Shown here: piece by piece, positions 1 through 5,226 of the stretch | Layout of the letters: each line of letters starts with the position of its first letter | Position numbering within the stretch: the first letter of the stretch is position 1 | Assembly (NCBI GenBank): GCA_020161145.1 | Contig: JAIUPQ010000006.1 | Span: 1-64,000 of the forward strand | Reading direction: 5' to 3' | DNA length: 64,000 bases | Source: Pseudomonadota bacterium | Lineage (GTDB): Bacteria; Pseudomonadota; Gammaproteobacteria; Burkholderiales; Burkholderiaceae_C | Notes under the pieces: model-generated | Seen by the model: only the letters and a program-made list of their open reading frames with translations | Told to the model about the DNA's origin: nothing | Database searches by the model: none | Position numbers and translations under genes: made by a program

Positions 1-56
1 ACGCGCTTGCGGGTCTTCTTGGTCGTCAGCTCAAGGCCCAGGCTGGTTTGCTTCAT
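1..56 (-). CDS. IS5-family transposase, N-terminal fragment cut by window edge
   Basis: Reading leftwards from an ATG at 56 the first 18 codons give MKQTSLGLELTTKKTRKR, which I recognise as the standard N-terminus of IS5-group DDE transposases (usually about 330 residues, followed by REFL..MERVVPW). The rest lies outside the window. The protein would catalyse cut-and-paste transposition of the element. Whether it is intact cannot be judged. Confidence 0.7.
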   Translation of the reverse strand, partial: MKQTSLGLELTTKKTRKR

Positions 57-123
57 GGCACCATCTTGCCCTCTCACGCCTGCGCGCGGTACCAGGGGTT
101 GCTCGGGTTTGTGCAGAGTGTCC
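1..123. mobile_element. End of an IS5-family insertion sequence (partial)
   Basis: The first 56 bases encode, on the minus strand, the start of an IS5-type transposase, and the stretch 57-123 upstream of it should be the IS end. The likely tip lies near 123: the sequence gtgcagagtgtcc is followed by CTAA at 124-127, which fits the 4-bp YTAR target duplication typical of the IS5 group. The other end lies outside the window, so neither the inverted repeat nor the duplication can be confirmed. The exact boundary is inferred. Confidence 0.55.
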
Positions 124-160
124 CTAACAGCGCCCGGAAGATGATGGCAGGAAAAGGACC

Positions 161-538
161 ATGAAGAAATACATTTTTAGTTTTATTGCTGCTCTCGCTT
201 GTGCAGCGACTCTTGCCATCGGTTTCGTATTTGGAGTGAATCGGGCGACTGAATCAAATCTGGTTCGTAGCAACTATTTGAGCACCATCAATGCTGCGGC
301 CTCATATTCTGCACACGCCGATGTCGTTGAGTTGATACATGCCCAAAAAACCGCTAAGGCGCTTTGTCATTTAAATTTGCTAGCAAGTGCTGAAGTAAAC
401 CAGGTTCGAACCTGTTTGGCGGCTGCTGACTGTCGAAAACTGGTCGAGGAAAAAGTGAGGGAGATCGCGCCGGAACTTTCGATAAATGGCTCATTAAGGA
501 CTATCTATTATCGCGAGGGCGAATTGTGCAAGCCATAG
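161..538 (+). CDS. Hypothetical membrane-anchored protein, AT-rich orphan
   Basis: 125 residues. A single hydrophobic segment at about residues 4-26 preceded by MKKY gives a signal anchor or uncleaved signal peptide; the remaining ~100 residues would be periplasmic and contain four cysteines (about residues 69, 84, 91 and 123). A purine-rich aggaaaagga lies just before the ATG. I do not recognise the family. The gene and the 180 bases after it are clearly more AT-rich than everything downstream, and it lies directly beside an IS5 end, so it is probably acquired DNA. Coding status rests on the long open frame, the start context and the convincing N-terminal segment. Confidence 0.55.
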   Translation: MKKYIFSFIAALACAATLAIGFVFGVNRATESNLVRSNYLSTINAAASYSAHADVVELIHAQKTAKALCHLNLLASAEVNQVRTCLAAADCRKLVEEKVREIAPELSINGSLRTIYYREGELCKP

Positions 539-812
539 TTTTATCAGCAGGCGTCGAATTGTATCCATATGAGGAAAATAGAATTTTGAATTGACCCAGG
601 CAACAGACTGGTCTTCGTCTTGCGGCGAGAATAATGCGGGGATGGCTATTAATGCTCCATACTTAAAATTACCTGGGGCTTGCGCAAACCACATGAATAA
701 ATAATTATAGCGGTTCCAAAATTTACCCTGTCAATATCAATCTTCCCAATCGTCGGGGTGCTTTGGCGCCTGACGGAAGGTGGGCTATGAATTCAGTTTC
801 TCTATCACGCGC

Positions 813-1370
813 ATGCCAACCATTTGCCCCAAATGCGACCACGTGCGCCCACCCGATACCCAGGCGCCAGATTGGCAATGCCCGGCATGCGGTGTTGTCT
901 ATGCCAAGGCCAATCAAGCCCCATATCAGCCAGCCGCGCCCCGGCGCGAGATTCATGGCATCAGGACCGAGTCAGATGGGTCCTGGGGCAAATGGCTGGT
1001 CATGGCCGTGCTGGTCGCCGGGGCCTGGTTTGGCCTGCGGCAGGTGATGGATCACGGCGCCGAGGTCAGCAGCCACCGGGCAAGCCGGGGTGCGGCCATG
1101 ACGGAGCAGGCGCTGCGTGAGCTGGCGGTGGGTGTCTCGGCCAGTGACGTGGTGATCTATACGACCACGCATTGCCCGTATTGCGCCCAGGCCAAGGAGT
1201 GGATGAGCCGCTATGGCTTTGCGTTCACCGAGTGCAATGCCGAGACGGATGGCGGCTGCGTCAAGGCCCCAGCATTTGACAAGCCCCCCCTACAGACCTC
1301 CAGGCCGGCGCCAGAAGCCACGCGACCTGACAGCGTTGGCCAAGGCCAGCCGAGATCAGCGGCCATTTGA
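813..1370 (+). CDS. Glutaredoxin-like thiol-disulfide protein with zinc ribbon, C-terminally truncated
   Basis: 185 residues from the ATG at 813; this start is preferred over a GTG at 780 because MPTICPKC is the usual N-terminus of this family. Domains in order: a zinc ribbon with Cys5/Cys8 and Cys23/Cys26, one membrane segment at about 60-76, and a glutaredoxin/thioredoxin fold beginning near 110 with the redox motif CPYC at 121-124. In relatives the fold continues with a cis-proline strand (TPY-like) and a final helix; here, after about residue 150, the sequence turns into Pro-rich text without those elements and overlaps the 3' end of the opposite HD gene by 15 bases. It therefore looks like a 3' deletion or frameshift product and is probably not a functional oxidoreductase. 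Its role in relatives is uncertain. Confidence 0.6.
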   Translation: MPTICPKCDHVRPPDTQAPDWQCPACGVVYAKANQAPYQPAAPRREIHGIRTESDGSWGKWLVMAVLVAGAWFGLRQVMDHGAEVSSHRASRGAAMTEQALRELAVGVSASDVVIYTTTHCPYCAQAKEWMSRYGFAFTECNAETDGGCVKAPAFDKPPLQTSRPAPEATRPDSVGQGQPRSAAI

Positions 1371-1961
1371 CGGCGGCGCAGGTTGATCCGGTGCGTTCTC
1401 GGCCACGCGCTGCCGGGTGCGCTCATCCAGGACGCTGCGCATCAGCGCGAACAGTGGATCTGCACTGGTGTGCTTCTGGCCGTAGCTCAGGTTGAATCCG
1501 TAGTCGAAGTCTGGCGGGTTGAGCCCCTGGTTGTGCTGAAGGATCGTCTCCAGCTTGTCCAGCGCCTTGACTGCCTTGGCTTCGGGCGAGGCGGCGTCCT
1601 CGTATTCCTGCCAAAGCGCCATGATGGCGGCTCTACGCGGCGCATCCAGGGAGCGCGTGAGGTGCAGCAGGTCGGCCTTCTCCTGGTCGCTCTTGTCGGG
1701 GTGCAGGCTTTTTTCCACGGCGGGGATGTCGCCGTGGATGGCTTCGCCCAGGTCGTGGATGACGCACATCTTCAGGATCTTGAGCATGTCCAGGCCGGCC
1801 AGTTCCTGCTCAAAGGTCATGGCCATCAGGCACAGGCGCCAGGTGTGCTCGGCCGTACTTTCCGGTCGGCCGGTTGAGGTGTGCGCGCTCCGGAGCACGC
1901 TCTTGAGTCGCTCTGCTTCCTGAAGGAAGACCAGTTGGCCTTTGATGTGGTCGATATGCAT
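1356..1961 (-). CDS. HD-domain hydrolase (YfbR/HDDC2-like 5'-nucleotidase family)
   Basis: 201 residues. The HD metal-binding signature is complete: His39, the His69-Asp70 pair followed by LGE, and a later Asp135 in KALDKLE. Overall layout and length match the HDDC2/YfbR class of HD hydrolases, which act on deoxynucleoside monophosphates and need a divalent metal; substrate here is inferred from family only. The gene stands alone, oriented towards the truncated glutaredoxin gene, with which it overlaps tail to tail. The ATG at 1961 begins a typical MHIDHIKGQLVFLQEAERLK start. Cytosolic, no signal sequence. Confidence 0.8.
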   Translation of the reverse strand: MHIDHIKGQLVFLQEAERLKSVLRSAHTSTGRPESTAEHTWRLCLMAMTFEQELAGLDMLKILKMCVIHDLGEAIHGDIPAVEKSLHPDKSDQEKADLLHLTRSLDAPRRAAIMALWQEYEDAASPEAKAVKALDKLETILQHNQGLNPPDFDYGFNLSYGQKHTSADPLFALMRSVLDERTRQRVAENAPDQPAPPSNGR

Positions 1962-1987
1962 CGTCAGCAGCTACTGGGTTGGATCAA

Positions 1988-2298
1988 TGGTGCCCGAGGC
2001 CGGAATCGAACCGGCACGCCTTGCGGCGAGGGATTTTCTTGCCACTTCGGCTTTCGCCGCCAGCGCGGGCGCTGTTCGTGGTCTGGAGCACGCCTTCACC
2101 ATAGCCTTGCGGCCACAGGTGCCCGCCGTCTGCTCTCTACACCTTCCCGGGCGTGGGCCTGGGCTTGGCTCGGCGTTGGCTCGGATGCCGGGGGCATCCA
2201 GGGCGTTCGCCGACTTTGACGGGCTTCACCTCGAGGGTTTCCCCCCGAGGGCTCAAATTGTTCAAGTCCCTTGTGTCTACCGATTTCACCACTCGGGC
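1988..2298 (-). tRNA. tRNA-Leu(UAA), interrupted by a group I intron
   Basis: Exon 1 occupies 2298-2264 (35 nt) and exon 2 2037-1988 (50 nt). Joined, they make an 85-nt class II tRNA: acceptor stem GCCCGAG/CTCGGGC, D-loop with GGTAGA, anticodon stem AGGGA/TCCCT with loop CTTAAAA (anticodon UAA), a long variable arm CGCC-GCAA-GGCG, T arm GCCGG-TTCGATT-CCGGC, discriminator A and encoded CCA. The break lies after U34, inside the anticodon, at the position used by the cyanobacterial and plastid tRNA-Leu(UAA) introns. Without splicing the tRNA could not work, so the intron must be active if this is the only UAA-reading leucine tRNA in the genome. Confidence 0.93.
2038..2263 (-). other. Group I intron (Azoarcus/cyanobacterial-like, probably IC3) in tRNA-Leu(UAA)
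   Basis: 226 nt between the two tRNA exons, without an ORF. It starts after the U of the 5' exon and ends with G, as group I introns do. Conserved core blocks match my recollection of the Azoarcus tRNA-Ile intron: AACGCCGAGCC, GAAGGTGTAGAGA, AGACGGC and AAGGCTATGGTGAAGGC. The P7 helix can be paired as GAGCA with UGCUC where Azoarcus has GACUA with UAGUC, a compensatory change in all varying positions, which supports a folded ribozyme. A guide segment GAGCCC near the 5' end can form P1 with the exon end, placing a G-U pair at the splice site (with one A-C mismatch). Self-splicing is inferred, not shown. Confidence 0.88.
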
Positions 2299-2326
2299 AT
2301 GCGCAGCAACGCGGTGGGCGCGGATT

Positions 2327-3802
2327 CTAGCGACGCCAGAACGAGGGCAACAGCAGCGCAACGAAGCTGAGGAACTCCAGCCGGCCCATGACCATGCCCA
2401 GGCTGCACAGCCACAGCTGGATGTCGGTCAGGCCGGCGAAGTTGCGCGCTGGCCCCACTTCGCCCAGGCCCGGGCCCACGCAGTTGACGCTGGCCCAGGC
2501 GGCGGTGGCGGCCGACAGCGGGTCCATGCCGGTCAGCAGCAGCAGCAGTGCCAGCGTCAGCGTGGTGACGCCGTAGACCACGACGAAGGCCAGCACGGCC
2601 AGCACGGTCTGGCCCGAGATGGGCATGTGGCCGATGCGCACGGGCCGCACGGCATGCGGGTGGGTCATGCGGTTGAGCTCATGCGCCGTCTGCTTGAGCA
2701 GCACCAGCAGGCGGATCATCTTGATGCCGCCGCCGGCCGAGCCGGCGCTGGTGGCAAACGTGGACAGCAGCAGGATGAGCACCGGCCCGAACAGCGGCCA
2801 GACCTCGTAGTCGGTGGTGGAGTAGCCGGTGGTGGTGGCAATCGAGATGGTGTGAAAGAACCCATGGCGCATCAGGGTCAGCGTATCGCCACCTTCCGGG
2901 CTGCTGGCTGCCACCCACACGGCCATGAACGCGCCGCAGCCCGCCAGCGTCAGCATGGTGGCGCGCCATTCGGGGTTGGCCAGCGGCGCCAGCCAGCGCC
3001 GCCGCTGTACGGCGGTGAAATAGAGCGCAAAGTTGCCCGCCGAGATGAACATGAAGGCGACGGCCACCCATTCCACGGCGGCTGAGTTGAAGTAGCCGAT
3101 GCTGGCGTCGTGGCTGGACAGGCCGCCCAGGCTGACGGTGGTGAACATGTGCAGCAGCGCGTCCAGTGGCGACATGCCGGCGGCCCAGTAGGCCAGCGCG
3201 CAGGCGGTGGACAAGGTGGCGTAGACGGCCCACAGCCCGGTGGCCGTTTGCGCCACGCGCGGCGTGAGCTTGCCTTCCTTGAGCGGGCCAGCGATTTCAG
3301 CGCGGTAGAGCTGGCTGCCGCCCACGCCCAACATGGGCAGCACGGCCACCACCAGAATCAGGATGCCCAGGCCGCCCAGCCACTGCAAATAGCAGCGCCA
3401 GACGTTGATGGAGGTGGGCAGTCCGTCCAGCCCCGACAGCACGGTGCCACCGGCGGTGGAGAGGCCCGAGGAGGCTTCGTAATAGGCCTGTGCCATGGTC
3501 AGATGGCGACCCACCTCGGCCAAACCCTGCATCAGGGGGATGGAGGCAGCCAGCGGCAGCAGCGTCCAGGTGCTGACGACCAGCAGCAGCGCGTGCCGGG
3601 GCTGCAGCTCGCGCTTGTAGCGCGACAAGCCCAGCCCCAGCAGCAGACCGCAACCCAGCGTCAGTGCCATGCCCAGCATGAAGGCCGGCGCCATGCCGTC
3701 GTCGTAATACAGCGCCGCAGCCAGCGGCAAGGTCATGGTCAGCGCAAAGCAGGCCATCAGCCAGCCCAGCAACCGCAGCACGGGCAGCAAATGGTGTGTC
3801 AT
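2327..3802 (-). CDS. trkH: Potassium uptake protein TrkH
   Basis: 491 residues, the usual length of TrkH. It is a polytopic inner-membrane protein with hydrophobic segments throughout and the four-fold repeated pore-loop layout of the SKT superfamily; the last filter region contains TSAGSAGGGIKMIR, matching the conserved TGSTGGGIK-type loop. It forms the K+ conducting subunit of the Trk system and is gated by the cytosolic TrkA ring, whose gene lies directly upstream and overlaps the TrkH start by 4 bases (ATGA), so the two are co-translated. The gene ends 29 bases before the tRNA-Leu 5' end on the same strand. Confidence 0.92.
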   Translation of the reverse strand: MTHHLLPVLRLLGWLMACFALTMTLPLAAALYYDDGMAPAFMLGMALTLGCGLLLGLGLSRYKRELQPRHALLLVVSTWTLLPLAASIPLMQGLAEVGRHLTMAQAYYEASSGLSTAGGTVLSGLDGLPTSINVWRCYLQWLGGLGILILVVAVLPMLGVGGSQLYRAEIAGPLKEGKLTPRVAQTATGLWAVYATLSTACALAYWAAGMSPLDALLHMFTTVSLGGLSSHDASIGYFNSAAVEWVAVAFMFISAGNFALYFTAVQRRRWLAPLANPEWRATMLTLAGCGAFMAVWVAASSPEGGDTLTLMRHGFFHTISIATTTGYSTTDYEVWPLFGPVLILLLSTFATSAGSAGGGIKMIRLLVLLKQTAHELNRMTHPHAVRPVRIGHMPISGQTVLAVLAFVVVYGVTTLTLALLLLLTGMDPLSAATAAWASVNCVGPGLGEVGPARNFAGLTDIQLWLCSLGMVMGRLEFLSFVALLLPSFWRR

Positions 3803-5226
3803 AGGAACGTGGCACTGACGCGAAAGAGCTTCTCGACTTGCGCCATGTGGCGGCGCTGTGGCACGAACAGCAGCACGTGGTCACCGGCGTGCACCTCGGT
3901 GTCGCCGTGGGCGATCAGCACCTCGGGCGGGGTGGCGGCATCGTCGGCCAGCCCGCGCACGATCAGGCCCACGGCCACGCCGGGCGGGAGCGCCAGGTCG
4001 CGCACGCGGCGGCCCACCACGCGCGAGCATTTGGCGTCGCCACGCACCACCATGTCCAGCGCCTCGGCCCGGCCACGGCGCAGGCTGTGCACGGCGTCCA
4101 CGTCGCCGCGCCGCACGTGGGCCAGCAACTCGCCCAGCATGGCCTGGGCGGGCGAGAGGGCGATGTCGATCTGGGTGCCGTGCATCAGGTCGGCATAGCT
4201 GCGCTGGTGGATGAGCGCCAGCACGCGCCGGGCCCCCAACTGCTTGGCCAGCATGCCGGCCATGATGTTGTCTTCGTCGTCGCTGCCGGTGGCGCAGAAC
4301 AGGTCCACCTCGTCGATGTTCTCGGCCTCCAGCAGCTCTTCGTCGGTGGCCTCGCCGTTGAGCACCAGCAGTTCGTCGGGCAGGGTGGCGGCCAGGTGCT
4401 CGCAGCGGGCGCGGTTGCTGTCCACCAGCTTGACGCTGTGCAGGCCGGGCATGGCCAGCAGCTGCGCGGCCAGCTGGCGCCCGGTGCGGCCACCGCCGGC
4501 AATCATCACGCGGCGCACGGGCGCGCTGGCGGCGTCGAACAGCGCCAGCGCTTCGGCGATGTGGTCTTTGGCGACGAAGAAGAACACCTCGTCGCCGGCC
4601 TCGATGCCGGTGTCGCCGGCGCAGTGCAGGAAGCGGTCGGGCCCCGTGGGGTAGCGGCGGTAGAGCGCCATCACGCGCAGCGGCACGGCGGGCAGCAGCT
4701 CGCCAATCTCGTCGATGCGCCGGCCCGCCAGCGGCGAGCCGGCCATGGCCCGCACCGAGGCCAGTGCCACCAGCCCGCGCGCAAACCAGCGCACCTGCAT
4801 GGCCTGCGGAAACGCCACCAGCTTGGCGATGTAGTCGGCCACCGAGGTTTCGGGGCGGATGACCCGGTCCACCGCAAAGCCCTCGGCACTGAGCAGGTCG
4901 TCGCTGTCGGCCAGGTCGCCGGTATGCAGCCGGGCAATGCGCCGTGGAATGCCAAAGCGCAGTTGGGCGATCTTGCAGGCCACCAGGTTGATGGCGTCCT
5001 GGTCGGTGCAGGCGATCAGCAGCTCCGTATCGGCCGCGCCGGCTTCTTCCAGCACGGCAGGATTGAGTGCGTCGCCCGTGACGCCGCGCAAATCGACCCG
5101 CTCTTCCAGCTTGGCCAGCCGCACGGGGTCGACGTCGATGACGGTGACGTCGTTGCCCCGCTCGGCCGCCAGATGTTCGGCCACGCTGGTGCCCATGCGA
5201 CCGGCACCCAGGATGATGATTTTCAT
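3799..5226 (-). CDS. trkA: Trk system potassium uptake regulatory subunit TrkA
   Basis: 475 residues with two tandem RCK (KTN-TrkA_C) units. The first Rossmann fold starts at residue 4 with the nucleotide loop GAGRMG; the second starts near residue 240 with AGGGRTGRQL. Such double-RCK TrkA proteins bind NAD(H)/ATP and form the cytosolic ring that gates TrkH. Located upstream of and overlapping trkH, so the pair forms an operon. No membrane segments. Start is an ATG directly followed by the usual KIIILGAGRMG. Confidence 0.93.
   Translation of the reverse strand: MKIIILGAGRMGTSVAEHLAAERGNDVTVIDVDPVRLAKLEERVDLRGVTGDALNPAVLEEAGAADTELLIACTDQDAINLVACKIAQLRFGIPRRIARLHTGDLADSDDLLSAEGFAVDRVIRPETSVADYIAKLVAFPQAMQVRWFARGLVALASVRAMAGSPLAGRRIDEIGELLPAVPLRVMALYRRYPTGPDRFLHCAGDTGIEAGDEVFFFVAKDHIAEALALFDAASAPVRRVMIAGGGRTGRQLAAQLLAMPGLHSVKLVDSNRARCEHLAATLPDELLVLNGEATDEELLEAENIDEVDLFCATGSDDEDNIMAGMLAKQLGARRVLALIHQRSYADLMHGTQIDIALSPAQAMLGELLAHVRRGDVDAVHSLRRGRAEALDMVVRGDAKCSRVVGRRVRDLALPPGVAVGLIVRGLADDAATPPEVLIAHGDTEVHAGDHVLLFVPQRRHMAQVEKLFRVSATFL

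Follow-up and report, generated by a model that had tools for sequence, protein, structure and literature searches.

Anatomy of the split tRNA gene

The window (the whole 64,000-nt stretch of DNA that was analyzed) carries on its minus strand, from position 2298 to position 1988, a complete class II tRNA-Leu gene with an encoded CCA end, into which 226 nt are inserted after the first anticodon base (U34). Features are listed below in window coordinates.

1356..1961, minus strand: open reading frame downstream of the tRNA gene, which we take to encode an HD-domain protein; no match to the fetched ICE loci
1988..2298, minus strand: split tRNA-Leu(UAA) gene, 311 nt with the intron (ARAGORN, introns allowed)
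1988..2037, minus strand: exon 2, from A35 to the CCA end (read from the sequence)
2032..2037, minus strand: AAAATC, the remaining six bases of the att core, separated from CTT by the intron (sequence; core from attL and attR)
2038..2263, minus strand: group I intron, 226 nt, last base G (alignment and consensus structure)
2086..2090, minus strand: 3' strand of P7, UGCUC (helix 8 of the structure)
2131..2135, minus strand: 5' strand of P7, GAGCA (helix 8 of the structure)
2252..2254, minus strand: internal guide sequence GAG, the 3' strand of P1 (alignment structure)
2264..2266, minus strand: CUU, the 5' exon part of P1; its last base is the U of the U.G pair at the splice site (P1 alignment columns)
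2264..2298, minus strand: exon 1, 35 nt, through U34 (read from the sequence)
2327..3802, minus strand: open reading frame upstream of the tRNA gene, presumably TrkH-like; matches only same-genus trkH homologues, with no tRNA remnant between

Positions 2264 to 2266 also form the first three bases of CTTAAAATC, the att core defined from attL and attR of related elements.

When ARAGORN was run without introns, the split gene was missed and a tRNA-Ser was the sole call in the window. With introns of 150 to 450 nt allowed, the single call in the window was tRNA-Leu c[1988,2298], with anticodon taa and an intron of length 226 at 36. Together with the fold described below, this upholds the initial annotation, which had placed a 226-nt group I intron in a tRNA-Leu(UAA) gene at 1988..2298. 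Note that the intron mode also made calls elsewhere that look false (one runs across the Gly-Cys-Gly tRNAs in L164, for instance) and was used as supporting evidence only; due to these calls, the exons and the fold were also relied on to identify the gene. The insertion point after U34, previously recognized as the site of the cyanobacterial tRNA-Leu(UAA) introns, agrees both with ARAGORN and with the cyanobacterial exons. Cyanobacterial and plastid tRNA-Leu(UAA) introns, which we take to carry the subgroup IC3 label, interrupt the same tRNA at this same site and have the same fold class as the intron in the window. No sigma-70-type promoter was found in a scan around the split gene.

The split gene escapes ARAGORN at its defaults, and introns of this kind lie outside the stated design of tRNAscan-SE 2.0 (partial text of PMC8450103), so that genomes with such genes can seem to lack tRNA-Leu(UAA) or tRNA-Leu(CAA).

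Structure and covariation of the intron

Twenty-five distinct intron sequences with 7 to 8 exon bases per side were aligned. Identical introns were entered once, and L191, with an intron of 355 nt, was excluded from alignments and trees. Supplied with no structure, RNAalifold recovered P1 with a U.G pair at the splice site, P2, P4, P5, P7, P8 and P9, with at least one compensatory change in 35 of the 72 pairs. For an explicit structure containing the P3/P7 pseudoknot, 95.0% of 1292 cells were paired compared with a shuffled mean of 85.2%, where the structure had been drawn on the window row, which favors the window on this measure. Two-sided changes were seen in 27 of 52 pairs (shuffled mean 14.7) and the covariation score was 0.293 (shuffled 0.120); for each of these three values, none of 500 shuffles reached that of the real alignment. 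The statistic for further pair types was matched by 3 of 500 shuffles, and sliding the structure by 1 to 3 columns reduced the cells paired to 31–44%.

P7, singled out in the initial annotation as a compensated GAGCA/UGCUC helix, forms between 2135–2131 and 2090–2086; across the 25 relatives 100% of its cells pair and its variable pairs change together. The splice-site pair is U.G in 23 of 25 rows and C-G in both CAA rows. As judged from the alignment and its predicted core helices, P3 through P8 with the P3/P7 pseudoknot, the insert in the window is a group I intron. The UUU just before the guide GAG could pair by eye as P10 with A35–A37. From this fold, guanosine-dependent self-splicing, with CUU paired to GAG in P1 and AAA paired to UUU in P10, would be predicted to rejoin the exons into a normal tRNA.

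An Rfam covariance search had been proposed as a check capable of overturning the group I assignment. RF00028 gave no match to the window intron, neither at the gathering score nor at E<=10, and at the gathering score the introns in ten relative loci were also missed. In the control, introns scored above the cut-off in four of four cyanobacterial genomes (best 75.9 to 79.9 bits). The two tRNA-Leu introns of G226 reached 35.8 bits (in a gene 91% identical to that of the window) and 20.1 bits against a cut-off of 50, and no intron was found by the model in G295 (gene 96% identical to that of the window) or G618. Since close relatives also fall below the cut-off while cyanobacterial introns are found, we attribute the miss to a blind spot of the model, and RF00028 was dropped as an arbiter.

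Each of the four best cyanobacterial places found with RF00028 is a tRNA-Leu intron: two are called Leu(taa) by ARAGORN, and the remaining two, for which it sets the boundary wrongly, were assigned to Leu from their exons. We also built a model of 151 positions, R1, from the relatives. On the 3.5-Mb genome R1 matched one place with an E of 1.3e-35, the window being a member of the training set, and it also matched the tRNA-Leu introns of the four cyanobacterial genomes (E 3e-14 to 3e-13).

tRNA-Leu(UAA) genes in the genome of the window

All 41 tRNA places of the window's genome, which is rated 100% complete, were read with ARAGORN, and the leucine anticodons are CAG, CAA, GAG and TAG. A pattern for intact UAA and CAA genes found only CAA in this genome. 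A second, intact tRNA-Leu(UAA) gene, the presence of which the initial annotation had considered damaging to its own reading, was found in neither search, and the split gene is the only tRNA-Leu(UAA) found in the genome. Among the family genomes, the intact-UAA pattern was absent from each of the 26 for which the matches listed include an intron-bearing UAA gene, and it matched 177 of the 273 others; the pattern misses some intact genes, and the remaining 96 non-matching genomes are not all without one. Splicing of the window tRNA would be expected to be necessary for growth.

It is highly unlikely that the gene is a decayed relic that no longer splices. The failure to reach the RF00028 cut-off would fit such a relic, but the core helices are intact and show compensatory changes, the exons form a complete tRNA, and no other UAA gene was found in a genome of this completeness.

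Occurrence of related introns

Introns are known in the proteobacterial genes for tRNA-Ile(CAU) of Azoarcus, tRNA-Arg(CCU) of Agrobacterium, and tRNA-Leu(UAA) of a gamma-proteobacterium, the last reportedly described by Vepritskiy and colleagues in J Bacteriol in 2002. The initial annotation had named only the Ile and Arg cases; the Leu(UAA) kind is not new to proteobacteria. At least 32 of 299 family genomes, including that of the window, carry an intron-bearing tRNA-Leu (at least 26 UAA, at least 8 CAA and at least 2 both), and at least five further family genomes contain related introns in tRNA-Arg(CCU) (two), tRNA-Ile(CAU) (two) or tRNA-Thr(UGU) (one). The survey of relatives suggested at the outset gave many carriers in the family; within the genus of the window, none of the 15 further genomes had a full-length match to tRNA-Leu(UAA) plus intron. 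At the level of the order R1 matched 54 of 349 genomes, and at that of the phylum 41 of 398, in several tRNAs. A collection-wide search with the pattern GGGACTT-N-TTGAGCC was too loose to be useful; among the matches listed, a screen of 120 stretches retained only L067 and L101.

The tRNA-Ile and tRNA-Arg introns of proteobacteria are likewise small group I introns in anticodon loops. They differ in being inserted after U36, and the examples found here (L197–L199 and L206) fall outside the Leu clade of the tree. Introns in tRNA-Ile2 have been reported in Acidovorax and Burkholderia (partial text of PMC8450103).

In the tRNA-Leu(CAA) genes (L177, L179–L183, L192 and L193) the intron follows C34 and the guide GAG is unchanged, giving C-G in place of the usual U.G; this pair was counted in the alignment for two of the eight loci. 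Related group I introns also follow U34 in a tRNA-Thr(UGU) gene (L205, G111:C6:358700-359800) and in a tRNA-Ser(UGA) gene (L342, G408), neither of which we know to have been described as a group I intron host. In the tRNA-Thr(UGU) intron the would-be P10 bases differ by eye so as to fit the 3' exon of that tRNA. In G251, a degenerate intron 3' part with exon 2 (L196, G251:C12:28312-28472) lies a few hundred bp from an intact tRNA-Leu(CAA); this degenerate 3' part was removed before counting.

Mobile elements carrying a split tRNA-Leu gene

The native 5' half of another tRNA-Leu lies ∼200 bp upstream of the split gene in 10 of the 25 other UAA genomes, in L101 (a Lysobacterales genome) and in 8 of 8 CAA genomes, all taken from among the matches listed. 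The sequence of this half varies with the host and is followed, from CTTAAAATC or GACTCAAAA on, by DNA common to different hosts; in L173 (G274) the half appears by eye to be more degenerate. Gly and/or Cys tRNAs adjoin the remnant in eight of the nine UAA loci with a remnant that were scanned whole. At the other end, a tyrosine recombinase with integrase domains lies ∼180 bp from the matching host tRNA 3' half, and in all 15 cases (8 CAA and 7 UAA) the two halves, when joined, restore an intact tRNA-Leu whose anticodon matches that of the carried gene.

Both ends are on one contig, 50 to 82 kb apart, in 10 of the 15 pairings. The other five rest on the fit of the halves, because the ends are on different contigs (G178, G095, G196 and G203) or 2.56 Mb apart on one contig (G152). 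All 15 mapped elements have integrases of one family and interrupt a native tRNA-Leu (UAA or CAA) within its anticodon loop, leaving that gene broken. Each brings a complete tRNA-Leu with the same anticodon as its target, the intron of which splits the gene's own att core. No intronless tRNA-Leu was found in the 16 attL and 17 attR loci that were scanned whole. An intact integrase was not found for G142, G016, G285, G274 and L101, five loci that have a native 5' half, G274 keeping a fragment; the first four are drafts of 20–130 contigs or more, and decay is another possible reason for the missing integrases.

Pfam annotation of one element of the 15, that of G270, identified TrbI, CagX, a coupling protein, DUF3363, ParA and metal-resistance genes, and trb-like ORFs were seen by eye in the element of G295. 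The element integrase has a 62.7% identical homologue on the Polaromonas plasmid pPNAP01, a replicon that appears in the table of Tn4371-like elements in the partial text of PMC2789088. By its annotated gene content the G270 element is a Tn4371-like ICE, as the other elements of the relatives probably are. According to the partial texts of PMC9960961, PMC11448139, PMC6563109 and PMC2789088, ICEs of the Tn4371 family (ICEKKS102Tn4677, ICEbphKF708) share with them a tyrosine integrase, trb-type transfer genes, a relaxase-type protein, GATTTTAAG and a tRNA-Leu target. A carried tRNA-Leu is not mentioned in the parts of these four texts that were available, and PMC9960961, PMC11448139 and PMC6563109 do not use the word "intron" in their main texts. 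No ICE with such an intron was found in the literature, of which coverage was partial. Whereas some islands restore their target (partial text of PMC4383910), the elements described here break it and supply a whole replacement tRNA.

Integrase and att sites

The UAA elements have CTTAAAATC at both ends (attL and attR), defining it as their att core. The CAA elements share CTCAAAA instead, for which the literature covered gave no match. CTTAAAATC is the reverse complement of GATTTTAAG, the 9-bp repeat of ICEKKS102Tn4677 (partial texts of PMC9960961 and PMC11448139). For this ICE of the Tn4371 family, transfer has been demonstrated and tRNA-Leu is named as the main target (PMC9960961, partial text); a 2024 description places it upstream of a Gly-tRNA gene (PMC11448139, partial text).

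When the same 299 family genomes were searched with the element integrase, 33 had a match at E<=1e-100. In 14 of them the integrase is at tRNA-Leu, in sixteen elements altogether, and 15 of the 16 carry the split gene; in G131, a draft that is 87% complete with an integrase at a UAA site, no intron-bearing tRNA-Leu was found. The 18 other integrase places that were read are at GTGAAATGAAAAA-like sites, near the reverse complement of the published TTTTTCAT (partial text of PMC2789088). Among the remaining 19 integrase genomes, a split tRNA-Leu occurs in two, that of the window and G148, and lies on a contig other than that of the integrase. G295 has a second UAA-group integrase (L285, G295:C1:3137916-3139157) at a non-tRNA CTTAAAATCC site, and the split tRNA of this genome is whole.

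Flanks and phylogeny of the window gene

When positions 1–4000 of the window were compared by BLAST with the other fetched loci, 168 of 182 matches fell inside 1980–2305. Seven of the other 14 are to trkH, and seven span the gene and reach at most 2317. No att remnant was found near the locus and no integrase homologue on its contig, C5, which begins at window base 1; elsewhere in the genome the element integrase has a single homologue, on a different contig. The window locus does not lie inside an identifiable ICE of the Tn4371 family. A native tRNA-Leu remnant was also looked for after the Gly-Cys-Gly cluster of the same genome, and none was found. The related integrase of this genome (L282, G000:C10:448433-449701) is at a GTGAAATGAAAAA site that resembles the Tn4371 target and is not a tRNA; standing at a TTTTTCAT-like non-tRNA site, it was ruled out as the lost element.

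In a first tree the window intron is placed among the element-borne UAA copies (support 88/89), its nearest relatives being L163 and L164 at 96% identity; L067, for which no remnant was seen, falls in the same set. The CAA copies are grouped in a single clade (97/96) next to two UAA element copies, a placement suggesting that target and spare tRNA changed together in the element. In a second, larger tree, built with one entry per set of identical introns, support for the CAA clade is 87/0 and the exact place of the window intron is not fixed. Fourteen rows of the first tree are intron-bearing tRNA-Leu genes without any element.

The phylogeny against cyanobacterial introns, envisaged in the initial annotation, was provided by the larger tree, in which four cyanobacterial tRNA-Leu introns form a long branch of their own (99/99) apart from the proteobacterial tRNA-Leu introns, with differing base composition and the meeting of long branches flagged. 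Recent transfer of a cyanobacterial or plastid tRNA-Leu intron would account for the identical insertion site and for the recognition of cyanobacterial introns by R1, but this separate branch makes such a transfer extremely improbable. The proteobacterial copies, many of whose nearest relatives are on integrating elements, are a lineage distinct from the cyanobacterial ones.

Origin and possible role of the intron

The window gene looks like a stranded ICE tRNA gene, given that its nearest kin are element-borne (96%) and that similarity to other loci does not extend far past the gene. Most economically, the native tRNA-Leu was probably replaced by an element copy via recombination, with the native flanks left in place.

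We consider the following explanation, taken as a whole, to be likely. As read from the element sequences, a Tn4371-like ICE integrates by its tyrosine recombinase in the 7-nt anticodon loop of a native tRNA-Leu, splits the gene beyond use, and makes good the loss with a full tRNA of the same anticodon. By cutting the att core of this spare gene into CTT and AAAATC, the intron would leave the spare functional while removing the target of the integrase; we infer that the spare tRNA is in this way protected by its intron against the integrase of the ICE that carries it. The body of the window gene would descend from this line of ICE-carried spare tRNA-Leu genes, as its nearest kin suggest, and in the lineage of the window the spare would have been left alone at a chromosomal locus, probably after recombination had replaced the native gene.

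A rather unlikely alternative is that the window holds an ordinary, vertically inherited chromosomal group I intron and that the elements merely captured a gene of this type, the intron having no role for them. Introns do occur at native-looking sites beside Gly and Cys tRNAs (L174, L175, L185, L186 and L187) and in other families, and introns of the same type persist in tRNAs without a visible element; because such introns also occur without any element, the capture of an intron-bearing gene may have been chance. Vertical inheritance sits poorly, however, with the lack of a full-length match to tRNA-Leu(UAA) plus intron in the other 15 genomes of the genus, and with the finding that the nearest kin of the window gene are element-borne copies in other genera. 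Against capture of an intron without a role, the intron is inside the att core in 15 of 15 mapped elements and in both target classes, although these should not be counted as 15 independent events due to the shared ancestry of the elements.

Returning to the explanation by an ICE-borne spare gene, the stronger proposal, that the intron is a working part of the element, is advanced tentatively and with slightly more doubt than conviction. It would mean that the element destroys an essential tRNA gene (UAA or CAA) and provides an integrase-resistant copy, and that what is seen in the window is the outcome, a host that retains only the resistant split gene and hence lacks the usual tRNA-Leu(UAA) attB. 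If true, a self-splicing intron gains a selectable job, and the element swaps an essential tRNA for its own copy.

The intron in the window itself belongs to a known kind; the novelty lies in the connection with elements by which an essential tRNA is replaced and in the position of the intron inside the att core. In archaea, an intron of tRNA-Thr was brought by an integrating element, and an att-site intron was proposed to block further integration (partial text of PMC3293823). That case concerns an intron at 24/25, one locus and one population, again going by the partial text, whereas here a predicted self-splicing intron, bacterial elements, two target tRNAs and 15 mapped cases are involved. 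The elements described here would provide a concrete case for tRNA introns guarding genes against integrating elements, as argued before for archaea (partial text of PMC3293823).

Plasmid-borne relatives

The window gene matches 1,289 of 72,556 plasmid records, 1,267 of them over at least 80% of the gene; context was read in only some. Plasmid pCTX-M3 has an unannotated tRNA-Leu(UAA) with a 213-nt group I intron (L310:5001-5248; NC_004464.2, 61829-62076), and this L310 version is present in 624 of 5,426 complete E. coli genomes. In the three plasmids read for this feature (L310, L311 and L312), the unannotated, intron-bearing tRNA-Leu(UAA) lies within ∼3 kb of an aac(3)-II gene. Bradyrhizobium sp. 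ISRA443 has an intron-bearing tRNA-Leu(UAA) (L313:3001-3284) ∼750 bp from trbI on its conjugative plasmid NZ_CP094524.1.
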